Part shown: piece after piece, positions 9,423-25,026 of the stretch
Layout: every line of letters starts with the position of its first letter
Position numbering within the stretch: position 1 is the stretch's first letter
Source of the DNA: Sphingomonas phyllosphaerae FA2
Lineage (GTDB): Bacteria; Pseudomonadota; Alphaproteobacteria; Sphingomonadales; Sphingomonadaceae
Length of the DNA: 64,000 bases
Assembly (NCBI RefSeq): GCF_000427645.1
Contig: NZ_KE386571.1
Coordinates: forward strand, 3,058,895 to 3,122,894
Reading direction: 5' to 3'
The notes under the pieces: generated by a model
Seen by the model: only the letters and a program-made list of their open reading frames with translations
Told to the model about the DNA's origin: nothing
Database searches by the model: none
Translations under genes and position numbers: made by a program

Positions 9423-10679
9423 TTATTGATTCATCGAATCGAAGAAGTCGTCGTTGGTCTTCGAATCCTTCATCTTGCCGAGCAGGAACTCCATCGCATC
9501 GACGGTGCCCATCTGCATCAGGATCCGGCGCAGCACCCACATCTTCGACAGCTGGCCCTTCTCGACCAGCAGCTCTTCCTTGCGCGTGCCGCTCTTGCCG
9601 ACGTCGATCGCCGGGAAGATGCGCTTGTCGGCCACCTTGCGGTCGAGGACGATTTCGGCGTTGCCGGTGCCCTTGAACTCCTCGAAGATCACCTCGTCCA
9701 TGCGGCTGCCGGTGTCGATCAACGAGGTCGAGATGATCGTCAGCGACCCACCTTCCTCGATGTTGCGCGCCGCGCCGAAGAAGCGCTTCGGCCGCTGCAG
9801 CGCATTGGCGTCGACACCGCCGGTCAGCACCTTGCCGGACGAGGGCACGACGGTGTTGTAGGCGCGGCCCAGACGCGTGATGTTGTCGAGCAGGATGACG
9901 ACATCCTTCTTGTGCTCGACCAGCCGCTTGGCCTTCTCGATCACCATTTCGGCGACCTGGACGTGGCGCGTCGCGGGTTCGTCGAAGGTGGAGCTCACCA
10001 CCTCGCCGTTCACCGTGCGCTGCATGTCGGTGACTTCCTCGGGTCGCTCGTCGATCAGCAGCACCAGCAGGAACACCTCGGGGTGATTATGTGCGATCGC
10101 GCGCGCGATGTTCTGCATCATGATCGTCTTGCCGACGCGCGGCGGTGCGACGATCAGGCAGCGCTGCCCCTTGCCGATCGGCGCGACGACGTCGAGCACG
10201 CGGCCCGACTTGTCCTTGATCGTCGGATCCTCGATTTCCATCTTCAGCCGCTCGTCCGGGTAGAGCGGCGTGAGGTTGTCGAAGTTCACGCGCTGGCGGA
10301 CGCGCTCGGGCTCCTCGAAATTGACCTGCGTGATCTTCACCAGCGCGAAATAGCGCTCGCCGTCCTTCGGCCCGCGGATCTCGCCCTCGACGGTGTCGCC
10401 GGTGCGCAGCCCGTGCTTGCGGACCTGATTCGGGCTGACATAGATGTCGTCCGGGCCGGCCAGATAATTCGCCTGCGCCGAGCGCAGGAAGCCGAAGCCG
10501 TCGGGCAGCACCTCGATCGTGCCCTCGCCCATGATCTGCTCGCCATTTTCGGCCTGCACCTTCAGGATCGCGAACATCAGATCCTGCTTGCGCAGCGTCG
10601 AGGCGCCCTCGACGCCCAGCTCCTCGGCAAGCTGCACCAGCTCGGCGGGGGCCTTCTTCTTCAAATCCTTGAGATGCAT
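9423..10679 (-). CDS. rho: Transcription termination factor Rho
   Basis: 418 residues, normal length. An N-terminal helix bundle is followed by the cold-shock-like RNA-binding domain ([14 protein letters not shown], about 54-67) and the RecA-type ATPase with Walker A PPRVGKT (about 180), Walker [13 protein letters not shown] and the secondary RNA-binding loops. It is the hexameric helicase that ends transcription at unstructured C-rich sites. It lies in the minus-strand block leaving the origin and is followed by a multi-hairpin repeat. Confidence 0.98.
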
Positions 10680-10867
10680 GTATCTGTCCGATGTGATCGG
10701 GGGTCGGGGAAAGCTCGGCCGGCGATGGAGAACGCTCGAGAAACGAAGCTGTAGAGGATGCGGCGCGCACCGAGGACCGGCGACGTCACGGGCGCGAGGT
10801 ATGAGTCATGCGGGGGATAGTCAAGCGCATCCGTCATTCCCGCGCGCCCGTCGTTCCCGCTCCCCTT

Positions 10868-10963
10868 CGTCATTCCCGCGCAGGCGGGAATCCAGACGCG
10901 CAGGTTCTCGAAAGAGTAACGGACCTCAGGGGTTCTGGATTCCCGCCTTCGCGGGAATGACGG
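10868..10963. repeat. Family C palindromic repeat, copy 1
   Basis: Left arm CGTCATTCCCGCGCAGGCGG and right arm CGCCTTCGCGGGAATGACGG are near-perfect complements around a 50 bp centre containing CCAGACGCGCAGGT. A truncated left arm (CGTCATTCCCGCGCGCCCG) sits just before it at 10831. The second full copy, in the opposite orientation, is at 59396 inside crtB. Confidence 0.85.
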
Positions 10964-10972
10964 GAGATCAGA

Positions 10973-11428
10973 TCAAAACGGCTTCACGATCACCAGGATC
11001 ACGATCAACGCGGTCGCGAGCGCCGGAATCTCGTTCATCATCCGCAGCGCCTTGTTCGACACGCCCGCCTGCCCGCGCGCCAGCTTCTTCGCATAGCCGA
11101 CCGCCCAGCCATGATAGCCCGACAGCAGCAACACGATCGCCAGCTTGGCGTGCAGCCACCCCAGCCCCGGCACGCCATCCGCCAGCCCGGCGTTGAGTGC
11201 CAGCGCGAGGCCCAGCACCCAGACGACGATCATCGCCGGCGTCAGGATGATCGCGCGCAGCTTGTTCTCGCGCTCGACCCAGCGCGCGGCATCCGCGGGG
11301 TCGGACAATCCCTCCTGATGATAGACCAGATAGCGCGGCAGCATGAACAACCCGGCCATCCAGAAGATCACGAAGATGACGTGCGCCGCCTTCACCCAAT
11401 CATAGGTCGCGCCCAGAAACCCGACCAT
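10973..11428 (-). CDS. hemJ: Protoporphyrinogen IX oxidase HemJ
   Basis: 151-residue four-helix membrane protein of the HemJ (UPF0093) family, the oxygen-independent-type protoporphyrinogen oxidase of most alphaproteobacteria. Conserved HVIFVIFWMAGLFMLPR near residue 15 and HAKLAIVLLLSGYHGW near 85 carry the heme-linked histidines. It starts 2 bp after the hemE stop, so both heme genes form one operon, adjacent to the origin. Confidence 0.9.
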   Translation of the reverse strand: MVGFLGATYDWVKAAHVIFVIFWMAGLFMLPRYLVYHQEGLSDPADAARWVERENKLRAIILTPAMIVVWVLGLALALNAGLADGVPGLGWLHAKLAIVLLLSGYHGWAVGYAKKLARGQAGVSNKALRMMNEIPALATALIVILVIVKPF

Positions 11429-11430
11429 GT

Positions 11431-12450
11431 TCAGCCCCTTACCCGTTGCAACAAATGTTCGACATGCGCGATCGGCGTATGTTGCCCGATCCCGTGGCCG
11501 AGATTGAAGACATGCGGCCGCTCCGGGAACGCCGCCAGCACCCGGTCGATCCCCGCGTCCAGCGCCGCCCCACCGGTCAGCAATGCGAGCGGATCGAGGT
11601 TGCCCTGCACCGGCAGCCCCACCGGCAGCACCGAATCCGCCCAATGCGGATCGACCGTCTCGTCCAGCCCGATCGCGTCGACCGCGGTGCCCGCGGCATA
11701 AGCGGCCAGCTTGCCGCCTGCGCCCTTCGGAAAGCCGATGATCGGCACCCCCGGGCAGCGTGCACGGACGCCGTCGACAATCGCGCGGTTCGGCGCGATC
11801 ACCCAGCGCTCGAACTGCGCGGGCGACAGGCTGCCCGCCCAGCTGTCGAAGATCTGCACCGCCTCCACGCCGCTCTCGATCTGCGTCGCCAGATAATCGA
11901 TCGTCATCGCGACGACCGCGTCGATGATCGCGCCGAACGCCGCCGGATCGGCATAGGCGAAACGGCGCGTCACTTCCTGATCGCGGCTGCCCTGCCCCGC
12001 CACCATATAGGTCGCGACCGTCCACGGCGATCCGGCGAACCCGAGGAAGGTCGTCTCCGCCGGCAGTAACCCGGCGACCCGCCGCACCGTCGCATAGACC
12101 GGATCGAGCCGCGTCGGCTCGGGAGTCAGCGCCGCCAGCGCCACGTCGACCAGCGCCGGGGCCAGCCGCGGTCCCTCGCCCGCGCCGAACGTCAGCTCCT
12201 GGCCCAGCGCCCACGGCACCATCAGGATGTCGGAGAACAGGATCGCACCATCGAATCCGAAGCGGCGGATCGGTTGCAGCGTCACCTCTGTGGCCGCGAC
12301 CGGATCGGTGGCGAGCGCGAGGAACCCGCCCTTCTCCGCGCGCAACGCCCGATATTCGGGAAGGTACCGCCCGGCCTGCCGCATCAGCCACGTTGGCGGG
12401 CGGTCGGCGCGCTCGCCGTTCAGGGCTCGCAACAGGGGTTTGTTAACCAT
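11431..12450 (-). CDS. hemE: Uroporphyrinogen decarboxylase
   Basis: 339 residues, normal length. It decarboxylates the four acetate chains of uroporphyrinogen III in heme synthesis. Signatures are PTWLMRQAGRYLPEYR (about 19-34), the catalytic-Asp ILFSDI, GFAGSPWT and the C-terminal GHGI. hemE flanking the chromosome origin is a known alphaproteobacterial arrangement (for example Caulobacter), which supports the oriC call next to it. The start at 12450 abuts the origin region. Confidence 0.97.
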   Translation of the reverse strand: MVNKPLLRALNGERADRPPTWLMRQAGRYLPEYRALRAEKGGFLALATDPVAATEVTLQPIRRFGFDGAILFSDILMVPWALGQELTFGAGEGPRLAPALVDVALAALTPEPTRLDPVYATVRRVAGLLPAETTFLGFAGSPWTVATYMVAGQGSRDQEVTRRFAYADPAAFGAIIDAVVAMTIDYLATQIESGVEAVQIFDSWAGSLSPAQFERWVIAPNRAIVDGVRARCPGVPIIGFPKGAGGKLAAYAAGTAVDAIGLDETVDPHWADSVLPVGLPVQGNLDPLALLTGGAALDAGIDRVLAAFPERPHVFNLGHGIGQHTPIAHVEHLLQRVRG

Positions 12451-12764
12451 CGTGTGCGATCCTTCTACCTTCTAGGTAAGATTCTAAGAGAGTCTGGTTG
12501 TTGATGCGGTAGGCGCGTGGATCGCGGGGGCTTATGCGTCACCACCGGAATTGCCAACAGCTTGACTCATCCGCCAACGCCGGACGCCGTCGGATTCGAC
12601 GCACACTGTCCACGTTTTTCACAGCCTGTGGATAAAATCCGGCGTTGGGGACGGCGCTGTGGATAAAATCGAGGTTGTCCACCGATCGGGGTCGCGCTTG
12701 GCGGGGCGATGAAGTTGGTCTAGCGGCTGTCCACGACTTATCCACAGATCGGTCCAGCCCGCTG
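12451..12764. other. oriC: Probable chromosomal replication origin (oriC)
   Basis: 314 bp without a gene between divergent hemE and the PPDK-regulator gene. DnaA-box sequences: TTTTTCACA 12615-12623, TGTGGATAA (reverse TTATCCACA) at 12627-12635 and 12658-12666, and TTATCCACA 12738-12746, plus weaker TTGTCCACC at 12675. Four GANTC sites, the CcrM methylation target in alphaproteobacteria, lie at 12480, 12490, 12564 and 12593. Flanking genes match known alphaproteobacterial origins. Transcription on both sides is directed away from the region. The unwinding element was not identified. Confidence 0.85.
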
Positions 12765-13595
12765 ATGCTCCGCCTCCACCTCCACCTGCTGTCGGACTCG
12801 ACCGGCGAGACGCTGGAGAACATCGCCAAGGCTGCGCTCGCGCAATATGACGATGTCGAAACCGTCCGGCACTTCTGGCCGATGGTGCGCACCGAGACGC
12901 ACCTCGACCGCATCCTTCAGGAAATTGCGCAGAATCCGGGGCTGGTGATTTTCACGCTCGTCAATCCGGTGACGCGCGCCGCGCTGGAGACGCGCTGCAA
13001 GGCGCTCGGGCTGCCCACCGTCGCCCCGCTCGATCCCGTCAACGACGCGTTGTCGATGCTGCTGGGGCAACAGGCCAAGGCGCGGCCCGGTCGCCAGCAC
13101 GTCCTCGACGCCGCCTATTTCGCGCGCGTCGACGCGATCCAGTTCACGATCGCGCATGACGACGGGATCGCGCACGAGGAATGGGAGGAGGCCGATATCC
13201 TGCTCGCCGGGGTCAGCCGCTCGTCGAAGACCCCGACCTCGATCTATCTCGCCAATCGCGGGTTCAAGACCGCCAACATCCCGATCGTGGTCGAGAGCCC
13301 CCCGCCGCGCGCGCTGTTCACGCTCAAGAATCCGCTGGTGGTCGGGCTGACCACCAGCACCGACCGATTGATCCAGATCCGCCGCAACCGGCTGCTGTCG
13401 CTCAACCAGGCGACCGAAACCAATTATGTCGATCAGGACGCGGTCGCGCGCGAGATCGCCTATGCGCGGCGAATGTTCGCCGATAACGGCTGGCCGGTGA
13501 TCGACGTCACGCGCCGCTCGATCGAGGAAACCGCCGCCGCGATCATCGCGCTCGTCAATGAACGCCGCGGGCTGGCGGCACGGAACACCGATTGA
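12765..13595 (+). CDS. Pyruvate,phosphate dikinase regulatory protein (PPRP, DUF299 family)
   Basis: 276-residue bifunctional serine/threonine kinase and phosphorylase that inactivates or reactivates PPDK (or PEP synthetase). The N-terminal LHLLSDSTGET and central GVSRSSKTPTSIYLA (P-loop, about 150-164) are diagnostic, as is NIPIVVESPPP. ATG 12765 fits family N-termini; an upstream in-frame ATG at 12645 would run through the DnaA boxes and is rejected. It is the first gene of the plus-strand origin operon and its TGA overlaps the maf ATG by one base. Confidence 0.93.
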   Translation: MLRLHLHLLSDSTGETLENIAKAALAQYDDVETVRHFWPMVRTETHLDRILQEIAQNPGLVIFTLVNPVTRAALETRCKALGLPTVAPLDPVNDALSMLLGQQAKARPGRQHVLDAAYFARVDAIQFTIAHDDGIAHEEWEEADILLAGVSRSSKTPTSIYLANRGFKTANIPIVVESPPPRALFTLKNPLVVGLTTSTDRLIQIRRNRLLSLNQATETNYVDQDAVAREIAYARRMFADNGWPVIDVTRRSIEETAAAIIALVNERRGLAARNTD

Positions 13596-14182
13596 TGCTG
13601 ATTCTCGCTTCGCAAAGCGCCTCGCGCACCACGATGCTCGCCGCCGCCGGCGTGCCCTTCACCGCCGAGCCGGCCTATGCCGACGAGGCGGCGCTGAAGG
13701 CGGCGATGGCCGGCCGGCACCCGCGCGACGTGGCCGATGCGCTCGCCGAGCTGAAGGCGCTCAAGGTCAGCGCGCGGCATCCCGGCCATCTGGTGCTCGG
13801 GTCGGACAGCCTCGCGGTGCTCGACGACGGCACGATCCTCGACAAGCCGACCAGCCGCGACGAGGCGCGCGATCACCTCACGCGCATGGCGGGCAAGCGC
13901 CACGATCTGGTCAGCGCGGCGGTGATCGCGGAGAACGGTCAGGCGGTGTGGCGGATCGTCGACAAGGCGAAAATGTTCGTCCGCCCGCTCTCGCCCGCGT
14001 TCATCGAAACCTATCTCGACGCCGAATGGCCGGCGATTGCGGGCTGCGTCGGCTGCTACCGGATCGAGGGGCCGGGCGCGCAATTGTTCGCGCGGATCGA
14101 CGGCAGCCAGTTCACCGTGCTCGGCATGCCGCTGCTTCCGGTGCTCGACTATCTGCGGGTCCGACAGGTGCTGCCGGCGTGA
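13595..14182 (+). CDS. maf: Maf-family nucleotide pyrophosphatase
   Basis: 195 residues. Maf proteins hydrolyse non-canonical or pyrimidine nucleoside triphosphates. The N-terminal LASQSASR holds the phosphate-binding SxSxR loop; LGSDSLAVLD and the following DKP carry the conserved acidic and Lys residues. The start is ATG 13595 (sequence TGATG with the upstream stop). Neighbours aroE, coaE and dnaQ form the classic origin-side cluster. Confidence 0.92.
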   Translation: MLILASQSASRTTMLAAAGVPFTAEPAYADEAALKAAMAGRHPRDVADALAELKALKVSARHPGHLVLGSDSLAVLDDGTILDKPTSRDEARDHLTRMAGKRHDLVSAAVIAENGQAVWRIVDKAKMFVRPLSPAFIETYLDAEWPAIAGCVGCYRIEGPGAQLFARIDGSQFTVLGMPLLPVLDYLRVRQVLPA

Positions 14183-14216
14183 GCGTCCGTCCCTCCGTGA
14201 CACCCCATTACGCCGT

Positions 14217-14240
14217 CACCCCGGCGAAAGCCGGGGTCCA
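14217..14240. repeat. Small GC hairpin repeat
   Basis: CACCCCGGCGAAAGCCGGGGTCC forms a perfect 7 bp stem in the 120 bp maf-aroE gap. The same hairpin, slightly changed, is the left part of the repeat at 5565. Confidence 0.6.
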
Positions 14241-14302
14241 TGTTTCCGCGAGCGCAGCGGTGGAGACGAGGTCACCGACGCCCGATCGGCCAAGGTAGCA
14301 TC

Positions 14303-15118
14303 ATGATCAACACCCCCTATGCCGAGGTGATCGGCGACCCGATCGCACATTCCAAATCGCCGCTGATCCACGGCTTCTGGCTCGAAAAGCTCGGGCTGAC
14401 CGCCGACTATCGCGCAACGCGGGTCGCCGGCGACGATCTCGCCGACTATTTCGCGCGCCGCACCGATGACGCCGACTGGCGCGGATGCAACATCACCGTC
14501 CCGCACAAGGTCGCGGCGCTCGATCACGTTCCCGACCCCGGCGACGTGCGCGGGATGATCGGCGCGGCGAACACCGTCTTCCGCGGTGAGGGCGGCGCGT
14601 TGATCGCGACCAACACCGATGCCGCCGGTTTCCTGTCGCCGATCGCCGATCTCGATCTGTCCGGCCAGCCGGTGGTGGTGGTCGGCGCAGGCGGCGCGGC
14701 GCGCGCGGTGCTGTTCGCGCTCGCGCGCAGCAACGTCGGCCGCGTGACATTGCTGAACCGCACCCCGCTGAAGGGCGCGGCGTTGCTGGCGCGGTTCGGC
14801 CTGAAGGGCGACGCGCTCCCGCTGACCGCACGGCTCCCCGCCGCGGCGCTGCTGGTCAACACCAGCGTGCTCGGCATGACCGGGCACGACCCGCTCGACC
14901 TCGACCTCGGCTCGCTCCCGGACGAGGCGGTCGTCTACGACATCGTCTACGCCCCGCTCGAAACCCCGCTGCTCAAGGCGGCGCGCGCGCGCGATCTGGA
15001 GACGGTCGACGGACTGGAGATGCTGATCGGCCAGGCCGCGGTCGCGTTCGAACTGTTCTTCGGCGCCGCCCCGCCACGCGAGCATGACGAGGAATTGCGC
15101 GCCCGCCTGCTCGCATGA
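14303..15118 (+). CDS. aroE: Shikimate dehydrogenase
   Basis: 271 residues. It reduces 3-dehydroshikimate with NADPH in aromatic amino-acid synthesis. The substrate-binding SKSPLIHG, catalytic Lys of NITVPHK (about 64-70), Asp of NTDAAGF and the dinucleotide loop GAGGAAR (about 130) are all present. The final ATGA overlaps coaE. The start at 14303 (ATCATGATC) has no strong ribosome site, though GGTAGCATC precedes it. Confidence 0.95.
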   Translation: MINTPYAEVIGDPIAHSKSPLIHGFWLEKLGLTADYRATRVAGDDLADYFARRTDDADWRGCNITVPHKVAALDHVPDPGDVRGMIGAANTVFRGEGGALIATNTDAAGFLSPIADLDLSGQPVVVVGAGGAARAVLFALARSNVGRVTLLNRTPLKGAALLARFGLKGDALPLTARLPAAALLVNTSVLGMTGHDPLDLDLGSLPDEAVVYDIVYAPLETPLLKAARARDLETVDGLEMLIGQAAVAFELFFGAAPPREHDEELRARLLA

Positions 15119-15708
15119 TCCTCCTCGGCCTCACCGGCTCGATCGGCATGGGCAAGTCGACCGTCGCGGCGATGTTCGCCGACGCCGGTGTGCCGGTCTT
15201 CGACGCCGACGCAACGGTGCATCGCCTGCAAGGCCCCGGCGGCGCACTGGTCACCGCGATCGAGGCGCGCTTCCCCCGCACCACCGGCCCGGCCGGAGTC
15301 GACCGCGCCGCACTGGGCGCCGCCGTGCTGAACGACGACGCAGCGCTGCGCGCGCTGGAGGCGATCGTCCACCCGGCGGTCCGCGCCGAGCGCGAAGCCT
15401 TCCTCGCCCGGCACCACGACTCGCCGCTGGTCGTGTTCGACATCCCGCTATTGTTCGAAACCGGCGGCGACCGCGACATGGATTTCGTCGTCGTGGTGTC
15501 CGCATCCGCCCCGGTGCAGCGCGAACGCGTGCTGGCGCGCCCCGGCATGACCCCGGCCCGGTTCGAAGCCATCTATTCCCGGCAGCTTCCTGACACCGAG
15601 AAGCGCGTCCGCGCCGATTTCGTGATCCCGACCGACGTGTCGCTCGACGAAACCCGCGCCGCGGTGATGCGCGTCATCGCTTGCGTGCAAGCCGGACAGC
15701 GCCGATAA
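15115..15708 (+). CDS. coaE: Dephospho-CoA kinase
   Basis: 197 residues, normal length. It phosphorylates dephospho-CoA in the last step of coenzyme A synthesis. Walker A GLTGSIGMGKST (about 5-16), the substrate Asp of VFDADATVH and the DIPLLFETG segment fit the family. It overlaps aroE by 4 bp and is followed 10 bp later by dnaQ. Confidence 0.95.
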   Translation: MILLGLTGSIGMGKSTVAAMFADAGVPVFDADATVHRLQGPGGALVTAIEARFPRTTGPAGVDRAALGAAVLNDDAALRALEAIVHPAVRAEREAFLARHHDSPLVVFDIPLLFETGGDRDMDFVVVVSASAPVQRERVLARPGMTPARFEAIYSRQLPDTEKRVRADFVIPTDVSLDETRAAVMRVIACVQAGQRR

Positions 15709-15718
15709 CGACGCGATC

Positions 15719-16408
15719 ATGCGTGAGATCGTCTTCGATACCGAAACCACCGGCCTCAGCTTTGTCGGCGGCGACCGTATGGTGGAGATCGGCTGCGTCG
15801 AACTGGTCAACCGCGTTGAAACGGGGCGAACTTTTCACGCCTACTTCCACCCGGAACGCGACATGCCCGCCGAGGCGGAGCGTGTTCACGGCCTGTCCGC
15901 GGCCTTCCTCGCCAAACATCCGGTCTTCGCCGCCGGGGTGGAGGCGCTACTCGATTTCCTCGGCGACGCGCCGCTGGTCGCGCACAATGCCGGCTTCGAT
16001 TTTTCCTTTTTGAACGGTGAGTTGGAACGCTGCGGCACTGCCGCGGTCTGTCGTTCGCGGATGGTCGACACGCTCGCGATCGCCCGCACGCGCCATCCTG
16101 GCGCGAAGCACACGCTCGACGCGCTCTGCAACCGTTACGGAATCGACCGCTCGCACCGCGTGCTGCACGGCGCCCTCCTCGACGCGCAACTGCTGGCGCA
16201 GGTCTATGTCGAGCTGATGGGCGGCCGGCAGATCGGGCTGGGGCTGGTCAGCGAGGCCGCGCCGATCGTCGTCGAACAGGTCGTCGCCGCGCCGGCCCGC
16301 ACCCGCCCGCTGCGGGTCTTTTCGCCGAGCGATGCGGAACTGGCCGCGCATGCTGCGTTTCTAAAGAAGGTCAAAGAGCCTTTGTGGGGGGTCGCCGCGT
16401 CCGAATGA
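15719..16408 (+). CDS. dnaQ: DNA polymerase III epsilon subunit (proofreading exonuclease)
   Basis: 229 residues. DEDDh-family 3'-5' exonuclease that proofreads the replicative polymerase. Exo I FDTETTG (6-12), Exo II HNAGFDFSFLN and Exo III HGALLDAQLL give the acidic metal ligands and catalytic His. The C-terminal 60 residues would form the alpha-subunit tether. It is the last gene of the origin-side cluster. Confidence 0.96.
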   Translation: MREIVFDTETTGLSFVGGDRMVEIGCVELVNRVETGRTFHAYFHPERDMPAEAERVHGLSAAFLAKHPVFAAGVEALLDFLGDAPLVAHNAGFDFSFLNGELERCGTAAVCRSRMVDTLAIARTRHPGAKHTLDALCNRYGIDRSHRVLHGALLDAQLLAQVYVELMGGRQIGLGLVSEAAPIVVEQVVAAPARTRPLRVFSPSDAELAAHAAFLKKVKEPLWGVAASE

Positions 16409-16463
16409 CGCGAACGTACCGCCGGGTCGCAAGGGGGCGAGCCGGCATAGATGGAGGAAAAAT

Positions 16464-17054
16464 ATGGATATCCGGATTTCAGGTCACCAGGTGGCGATCG
16501 GCGACGCGCTGAAGGCCCATGTGCAGGACCGACTCCAGGGTATCACCGACAAATACTTCGCGCGCGCCATCTCGGCGGAAGTGACGTTCGGCAAGGGGCC
16601 GCACGACAATGGCTTCACCTGCGACATCGTCGCACACGTCACGCGCGGACTGATCCTGAAGGGCCGGCACGACGCGCATGACGCGCACCTCGTTTTCGAT
16701 GGTGCCGCCGAGAAGATCGAGAAGCAGCTGCGTCGTTACGTCCGTCGGCTCAAGGATCGCCATGCCGTGCACGCGGCGACCGAGGAAACGCAGGACCGCA
16801 CCGGCTATGACAATGCCGGCTACACCCTCTTCGCCGAGCAGATCGGCGAGGACGAGGCCGGCGACGCGCCGCTGGTGATCGCGGAAACGCGCGTCGACGT
16901 GCCGGACGCCAGCGTGTCGGATGCGGTGATGATGCTCGATCTGCGCAACACGCAGGCATTGTTGTTCAAGAATGCGGGCACGGGTTCGTACAACATGGTC
17001 TATCGGCGCGGCGACGGTACGATCGGCTGGGTGGAGCCGCAGCGTGGTGGTTGA
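16464..17054 (+). CDS. hpf: Ribosome hibernation promoting factor, long form
   Basis: 196 residues, the long HPF type that dimerises 70S ribosomes into inactive 100S particles. The N-terminal S30AE domain (1-100, with MDIRISGHQVAIGDALKAHV) and the C-terminal dimerisation domain (about 140-192, ending NMVYRRGDGTIGWVEP) are joined by an acidic linker. Strong ribosome site GGAGGAAAA just before ATG 16464. It is followed by ptsN, the usual partner; rpoN, often upstream of this pair, is not here. Confidence 0.95.
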   Translation: MDIRISGHQVAIGDALKAHVQDRLQGITDKYFARAISAEVTFGKGPHDNGFTCDIVAHVTRGLILKGRHDAHDAHLVFDGAAEKIEKQLRRYVRRLKDRHAVHAATEETQDRTGYDNAGYTLFAEQIGEDEAGDAPLVIAETRVDVPDASVSDAVMMLDLRNTQALLFKNAGTGSYNMVYRRGDGTIGWVEPQRGG

Positions 17055-17063
17055 CCGGACCTG

Positions 17064-17534
17064 ATGGCGAGCGATCTCAGCGACCTGCTCGCCCCCGAAC
17101 TGATCGTCCTCGGATTGCCGGCCGCCTCCAAGAAGGCGTTGTTTTTCCAGCTGGGTGCGCTCGTCGCCCCCACGCTGGGGATCGACGCACGGGTGGCGGC
17201 CGAAGCGCTGGCCGCGCGCGAGAAGGAAGGCTCGACGGGTTTCGGGGACGGGGTCGCCATACCCCACGCGCGGATTCCGGAGCTGTCGCGCATCGTGCTC
17301 GCGGTCGCACGGCTCGCGCAGCCGCTCGATTTCGGTGCGCTCGACGATGCGCCGGTCGACGTCGTGGTGGCGATGTTCTCGCCTCCGCAAGCGGGCGCGC
17401 AGCATCTGAAAGCGCTCGCGCGGGTTGCTCGCCGCCTGCGCGACCGGGCGCTGGTCGCGAAGCTGCGCGGCGCGGGATCGCCCGATGCGATCTATGCGCT
17501 GCTGACCGATCATGGGGTCCGTGATGCCGCCTGA
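17064..17534 (+). CDS. ptsN: PTS IIA-like nitrogen-regulatory protein
   Basis: 156 residues. EIIA-Ntr, terminal phosphate acceptor of the nitrogen PTS; a regulator rather than a sugar transporter. The phosphorylated His is in AIPHARIPEL (about 70); GSTGFGDGV just before it is family-typical. It follows hpf by 9 bp and its end overlaps the next gene. Confidence 0.93.
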   Translation: MASDLSDLLAPELIVLGLPAASKKALFFQLGALVAPTLGIDARVAAEALAAREKEGSTGFGDGVAIPHARIPELSRIVLAVARLAQPLDFGALDDAPVDVVVAMFSPPQAGAQHLKALARVARRLRDRALVAKLRGAGSPDAIYALLTDHGVRDAA

Positions 17535-24939: not shown

Positions 24940-25026
24940 TGGTGCGGTCGAGAAGACTCGAACTTCCACGTCCTTTCGGACACAACGACCTCAACGTTGC
25001 GCGTCTACCAATTCCGCCACGACCGC
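24940..25026 (-). tRNA. tRNA-Leu (anticodon GAG)
   Basis: 87 nt including encoded CCA. The acceptor stem GCGGTCG pairs with CGACCGC, the anticodon stem-loop reads CAACG-TTGAGGT-CGTTG, and the long variable arm (GTCCGAAAGGAC) is typical of leucine tRNAs. The T-loop contains TTCGAGT. 24696-24939 upstream on the plus side shows no supportable gene. Confidence 0.95.

Follow-up and report, generated by a model that had tools for sequence, protein, structure and literature searches.

A putative chromosomal replication origin between hemE and the COG1806 gene in Sphingomonas phyllosphaerae FA2

Where does replication of the Sphingomonas phyllosphaerae FA2 chromosome begin? An original prediction placed the origin in the gap between hemE and the gene encoding the PPDK regulatory protein (COG1806). 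We analysed this locus within a window of 64,000 nucleotides (C1:3058895-3122894) belonging to contig C1, which accounts for 3,799,314 bases of the two-contig assembly of 3,920,299 bases. The GC content of positions 12451-12764 is 58% as compared to about 67% in the surroundings. Mechanical calling of open reading frames starts COG1806 at a TTG codon at 12645, that is within the array of DnaA boxes described below. However, similarity of the COG1806 protein to its relatives begins at the ATG at 12765 or close to it, and 12451-12764 is therefore best read as intergenic, which agrees with the claim that the gap is free of genes. Pfam analysis yielded the gene order rho, UPF0093 (hemJ-like), hemE / COG1806 (Kinase-PPPase), maf, aroE, coaE, dnaQ-like and hpf-like, based on the domains Rho, UPF0093, URO-D, Kinase-PPPase, Maf, shikimate dehydrogenase, CoaE and RNase_T exonuclease. 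The order maf-aroE-coaE-dnaQ on the side opposite to hemE was thereby recovered as predicted. Searching Rfam with positions 10000-17500 (E values up to 1) returned two matches, both far under the gathering scores and neither within the proposed origin. A single tRNA gene was detected in the window; it encodes tRNA-Leu (GAG) and is located at 24940-25026 on the minus strand. The features of the locus are compiled in Table 1.

Table 1. Features of the proposed origin region and its boundary genes (positions in the window)
Feature	Position	Strand	Basis or remark
oriC candidate	12451..12764	none	intergenic, hemE / PPDK-regulator (COG1806) gene, 314 bp
hemE (uroporphyrinogen decarboxylase), left boundary	11431..12450	-	PF01208; start codon at 12450
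PPDK regulatory protein / COG1806 / DUF299 gene, right boundary	12765..13595	+	PF03618; ATG at 12765
AT-rich stretch, candidate unwinding element	12462..12501	none	60% AT
GANTC (CcrM-type) site	12480..12484	none	motif scan
GANTC site	12490..12494	none	motif scan
Conserved element GGGCTTATGCG...TGCCAACAGCTTGAC, candidate hemE promoter	12528..12566	-	conservation
GANTC site	12564..12568	none	motif scan
GANTC site	12593..12597	none	GATTC 15-40 bases past TTGAC in 28/30 aligned sequences
DnaA box 1	12615-12623	+	TTTTTCACA, 2 mismatches
DnaA box 2	12627-12635	-	TTATCCACA, perfect
DnaA box 3	12658-12666	-	TTATCCACA, perfect
DnaA box 4	12675-12683	+	TTGTCCACC, 2 mismatches
Conserved element GCTTGGC...CTAGCG, candidate COG1806 promoter	12696..12726	+	conservation
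DnaA box 5	12738-12746	+	TTATCCACA, perfect

The gap carries five DnaA-box-like 9-mers, which span exactly 132 bp (12615-12746) and all lie within two mismatches of the consensus, three of them being perfect. The four boxes plus a weaker one that had been described for this stretch are thus confirmed in number and position. In this genome, boxes 1 and 4 match the consensus poorly, which speaks against oriC; the position of box 1 is occupied by TTATCCACA or a one-mismatch version of it in many congeners, and box 5 reads GTTNTCCACAG in 27 of 30 aligned sequences. The perfect box TTATCCACA occurs only five times in the entire assembly, three times at the array and once each at C1:2682943 and C1:3358134, both of which are possible DnaA-regulated or titration sites. 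As a control, the same letters in reversed order occur 17 times. Uniqueness of the cluster was assessed genome-wide for perfect boxes and, for looser boxes (up to two mismatches, ending in CACA), in 200-bp stretches of the window and of 39 sampled segments of 20 kb. By this looser scan the array scores four boxes, and no 200-bp stretch away from it contains more than two.

Chromosome-scale features were evaluated using these 39 stretches of 20 kb, most of them about 100 kb apart, together with the window. Cumulative GC skew, calculated as the running sum of the skew per piece with equal weight given to pieces of unequal length, reaches its minimum in the piece that ends at the hemE/COG1806 locus and its maximum in the 1.10-Mb sample, the antipode of the locus being at 1.17 Mb. 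That is, the sampled skew switches at the locus with the terminus opposite, although several single samples have skews near zero, weak or wrong-signed. The GC-skew check that accompanied the prediction, carried out here by sampling, hence came out in its favour and not with a minimum far off. Within 83 kb around the locus, the local minimum falls at window position 16190; its offset of 3.5 kb to the right of the array is, in our judgement, within the resolution of skew. One sampled stretch (C1:3200001-3220000), some 130 kb to the right of the locus, has a GC content of 49.8% as compared to about 67% in most samples and is perhaps a recently acquired island. The orientation of GGGNAGGG, which we take to be a KOPS-like motif, likewise switches between the chromosome arms, with 53 forward and 7 reverse occurrences on the right arm and 11 forward and 62 reverse on the left arm (21 pieces each). 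Two parS sites, each one mismatch off the searched palindrome, are present at C1:3052656 and C1:3054911, 17-19 kb from the proposed origin. One is located at the start of mnmG and the other just ahead of parA, in a neighbourhood that we read as mnmE-mnmG-rsmG-parA-parB, with Pfam run on mnmG, parA and parB. Sites for parS were found in 13 of 14 relatives searched, and in the 12 with an origin match they lie 6-20 kb off that match. No dif site was detected near the presumed terminus using a single pattern; a candidate at C1:2527197 (3 mismatches to this pattern) was rejected as weak and far from the skew maximum.

Of 61 genomes in the genus, 50 (its own included) contain DNA matching the gap, leaving 11 of 60 congeners without a DNA match. 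The best 30 of the 50 matching genomes (own included), chosen by similarity, were fetched and aligned. A template of the box spacing fits 28 of the 29 fetched relatives with 6-16 mismatches of 45. The own genome scores 4, and among 234 controls, each a stretch of 3.3 kb, the lowest score is 20. The sole misfit, L070, scored 21, i.e. chance level; its best fit lies elsewhere and it was anchored by hand in the alignment. Since the fetched relatives had been chosen by similarity and several of them are near-copies of one another, we added a survey anchored on hemE. It comprises 80 named loci, 79 of them testable (L094 excluded), which were sorted by record titles and hemE identity into 62 sphingomonad and 18 other loci; L085 and L090 were counted as sphingomonad although their titles name other genera. 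Among the loci listed, hemE identity is highest for Sphingomonas endophytica (93%). COG1806 adjoins hemE in 66 of the 79 loci, namely in 58 of 61 sphingomonad and 8 of 18 other loci. With the last box free to slide and a cut-off of 16 mismatches or fewer, the five-box spacing fits 25 and misfits 36 of 61 sphingomonad loci and fits none of the 18 others, no control scoring below 18. Sphingopyxis-titled loci score 15-16 and Novosphingobium-titled loci 18-20, the latter corresponding to the control level (lowest 18). The fixed spacing is therefore a property of only part of the sphingomonad group. Near-perfect boxes were counted in the 500 bp next to hemE and, as a control, in a stretch at a distance of 1-1.5 kb, dropping four of the 80 loci whose upstream DNA is short (L078, L087, L094, L110). 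At least two such boxes are present beside hemE in 41 of 58 sphingomonad loci versus 2 of 58 controls, and at least one in 55 versus 5; 17 loci have fewer than two and 3 have none. Among the 18 other loci, at least two are present in 3 and at least one in 8, as compared to 0 and 0 in the control.

Besides the boxes, the gap contains an AT-rich segment above the genome average, whose AT content is reached by 213 of the 84,240 overlapping 40-bp windows sampled; the aligned columns 12465-12504 contain 66-76% AT in the 30 sequences. Moreover, the alignment of 30 sequences shows two non-DnaA elements with a degree of conservation similar to that of the boxes; in the hemE-anchored set they are less conserved. 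The element closer to hemE includes, on the minus strand, TTGGCA at 12552-12557 and GCATAAGC at 12530-12537. Its part CCAACAGNTTGAC (12554-12566) is present in 27 of 30 aligned sequences; in the hemE-anchored survey it was found in 18 of the 58 sphingomonad loci and nowhere among the 18 others. For the second element, the strict form TTGGC..GTTNCGCTAG (about 12698-12723) was found in 25 of 30 aligned sequences, the own genome carrying a variant, and a looser form in 28 of 30; among the hemE-anchored loci, the strict form recurs in 6 of the 58 sphingomonad ones and is absent from the 18 others. Given these frequencies, both elements are confined to the genus and groups neighbouring it. They may represent outward promoters of hemE and COG1806, in which case transcription from the candidate COG1806 promoter would start just before DnaA box 5. 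As a simple sigma-70 and terminator scan of 12300-12900 found nothing, the promoter reading rests on conservation and on a Caulobacter-type promoter consensus.

GANTC sites are dense in the region: four in 314 bp versus 1.15 per kb of sampled DNA is an about elevenfold excess, judged against a control that is not matched for intergenic DNA. The same limit of the control applies to the count of equally rich windows (32 of 16,640 overlapping windows, the origin's own among them), to the 145 sites in 10.8 kb of alignment, where base-composition shuffles give 38 on average, and to the loci beside hemE, with means per 350 bp of 4.6 versus 0.6 in the control for sphingomonads and 1.9 versus 0.6 for the others. 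A RAMA-domain protein encoded by a 377-aa ORF around C1:783623 looks like a CcrM-like methylase. GANTC is reported to be enriched in intergenic DNA of alphaproteobacteria and to be present in Caulobacter origins (PMC3973325), and its density here is thus not new in kind. CtrA is described as dispensable in Sphingomonas melonis, though influencing replication there (PMC8116508). In our data, the exact CtrA site TTAA-N7-TTAA is absent from the window and present in 1 of 30 aligned sequences; allowing up to one mismatch, sites occur in 3 of 30 versus 1.1 in shuffles. The window's only TTAACCAT (12443-12450) was rejected as a CtrA site because it runs into the start of hemE and is shared by just 2 of the 30 sequences in the alignment. 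IHF sites were found in 0 of 30 aligned sequences by a strict and in 2 of 30 by a loose consensus, though degenerate sites may be present. Hence, neither CtrA sites nor strict IHF sites are conserved, and the hallmarks of a CtrA-gated Cori of the Caulobacter type were not found.

Origins linked to dnaA are common among bacteria, and replication might accordingly be suspected to begin beside this gene, a view that also underlies the practice of opening sequence records at dnaA. A single match to the DnaA ATPase family was found, however; it is at C1:1243372-1243857, in a gene with three DnaA domains that lies 1.83 Mb from the proposed origin, corresponding to 0.96 of a half-chromosome, towards the skew maximum. 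Nor is there a perfect DnaA box within 1 Mb of dnaA, and we regard a start beside this gene as extremely improbable. Rather, because it is nearly opposite the origin, dnaA should be copied among the last genes. In 12 relatives, the distance amounts to 0.20-0.93 of a half-chromosome when contigs are treated as chromosomes and the best match is taken as dnaA, setting aside weaker DnaA-family matches in some of them. In two relatives (G008 and G010), dnaA lies less than 1,000 bases from the contig start, and a weak match to the origin-region DNA (E 7e-6 and 5e-4) is found 1.2-1.5 Mb from dnaA, with parS 6-10 kb from the match. In line with this, dnaA is reported not to be kept close to the origin in Sphingomonadales (PMC8116508).

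Alternatively, the box cluster could serve to titrate DnaA or act as a regulatory site, in the manner of datA or DARS, or could belong to a divergent hemE/COG1806 promoter under DnaA control, with replication starting elsewhere. This would account for the two conserved promoter-like elements that the aligned congeners show within the region and for the location of box 5 where the COG1806 transcript would begin. Promoters within an origin are compatible with origin status, however, and a mere regulatory site would leave unaccounted for that sampled skew and KOPS-like motifs switch at this locus, that parABS is 17-19 kb away and that the assembly holds no second cluster of perfect boxes; we therefore consider it very unlikely. 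Even less credit, practically none, is due to a chance grouping of 9-mers in an ordinary intergenic gap. The window as a whole contains seven one-mismatch boxes, a count matched in 1 of 100 shuffles, which taken alone is only suggestive; against chance stand the rarity of the perfect box genome-wide, the spacing conserved in congeners and the presence of boxes beside hemE across species. Taken together, the minimum of the sampled skew, the polarity of the KOPS-like motif, the nearby parABS system, the sole cluster of perfect boxes, conservation in congeners and a location shared with the Caulobacter origin and the predicted sphingomonad origins support the original prediction, and we estimate the probability that 12451-12764 is the chromosomal replication origin (oriC) at roughly 97%. 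We infer from these sequence features that replication probably does fire at this locus.

Initiation at the proposed oriC would involve binding of DnaA to the five-box array, followed by opening of the DNA by the DnaA oligomer in or beside the AT-rich stretch (about 12462-12504) near hemE. Opening would allow helicase loading and the formation of two forks, which would move away from each other and meet again near 1.1-1.2 Mb. Bound to the two parS sites, ParB may then direct segregation of the copied origins. With less certainty, the divergent hemE and COG1806 promoters within the origin, and methylation of GANTC sites by the CcrM-like protein, may tune initiation.

The place of this origin is already known for the group. 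The origins of Caulobacter and Rickettsia are reported to lie between hemE and COG1806 (PMC1914354), and the proposed hemE-side location as in Caulobacter agrees with this, as the boundary genes are the same. In Sphingopyxis granuli TFA, Ori-Finder placed oriC near hemE, with well-conserved putative DnaA boxes and a putative DUE, and an oriC near hemE is stated to be predicted for most of the Sphingomonadaceae that DoriC includes (PMC4741004). Our candidate shares the locus of these Sphingomonadaceae origins, which are described there as predictions only, and differs in nothing that would alter its kind. Caulobacter crescentus Cori resembles it in its boundary genes, in its five reported DnaA boxes, equalling the five found here, and in combining an AT-rich stretch with GANTC sites (PMC1914354, PMC3973325), whereas the five CtrA sites and the IHF site reported for Cori (PMC1914354) are not conserved here. 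The origins of Rickettsia prowazekii and Wolbachia likewise have hemE as a boundary gene; unlike the present locus, which retains COG1806, Wolbachia is reported to have lost this neighbour and to carry CtrA and IHF sites (PMC1914354), which are not conserved here. As hemE-type origins have already been published (PMC4741004, PMC1914354), the finding is correct and ordinary, that is, an ordinary alphaproteobacterial origin.

What our analysis adds is the spacing of the boxes and the two conserved elements embedded in the origin region of congeners, and we claim no novelty for the elements. It is conceivable, albeit rather doubtful, that the genus employs a variant of its own, in which a five-box array of fixed spacing is combined with two outward promoters (one starting at box 5) and dense GANTC sites and lacks direct CtrA and IHF sites. 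Methylation and transcription would then gate DnaA instead of direct CtrA binding, and dnaA would be copied among the last genes. As a warning, a sequence record that starts with dnaA is no marker of oriC in Sphingomonas. Finally, the position of the origin would fix the replichores and thereby the gene-dosage map of the chromosome.
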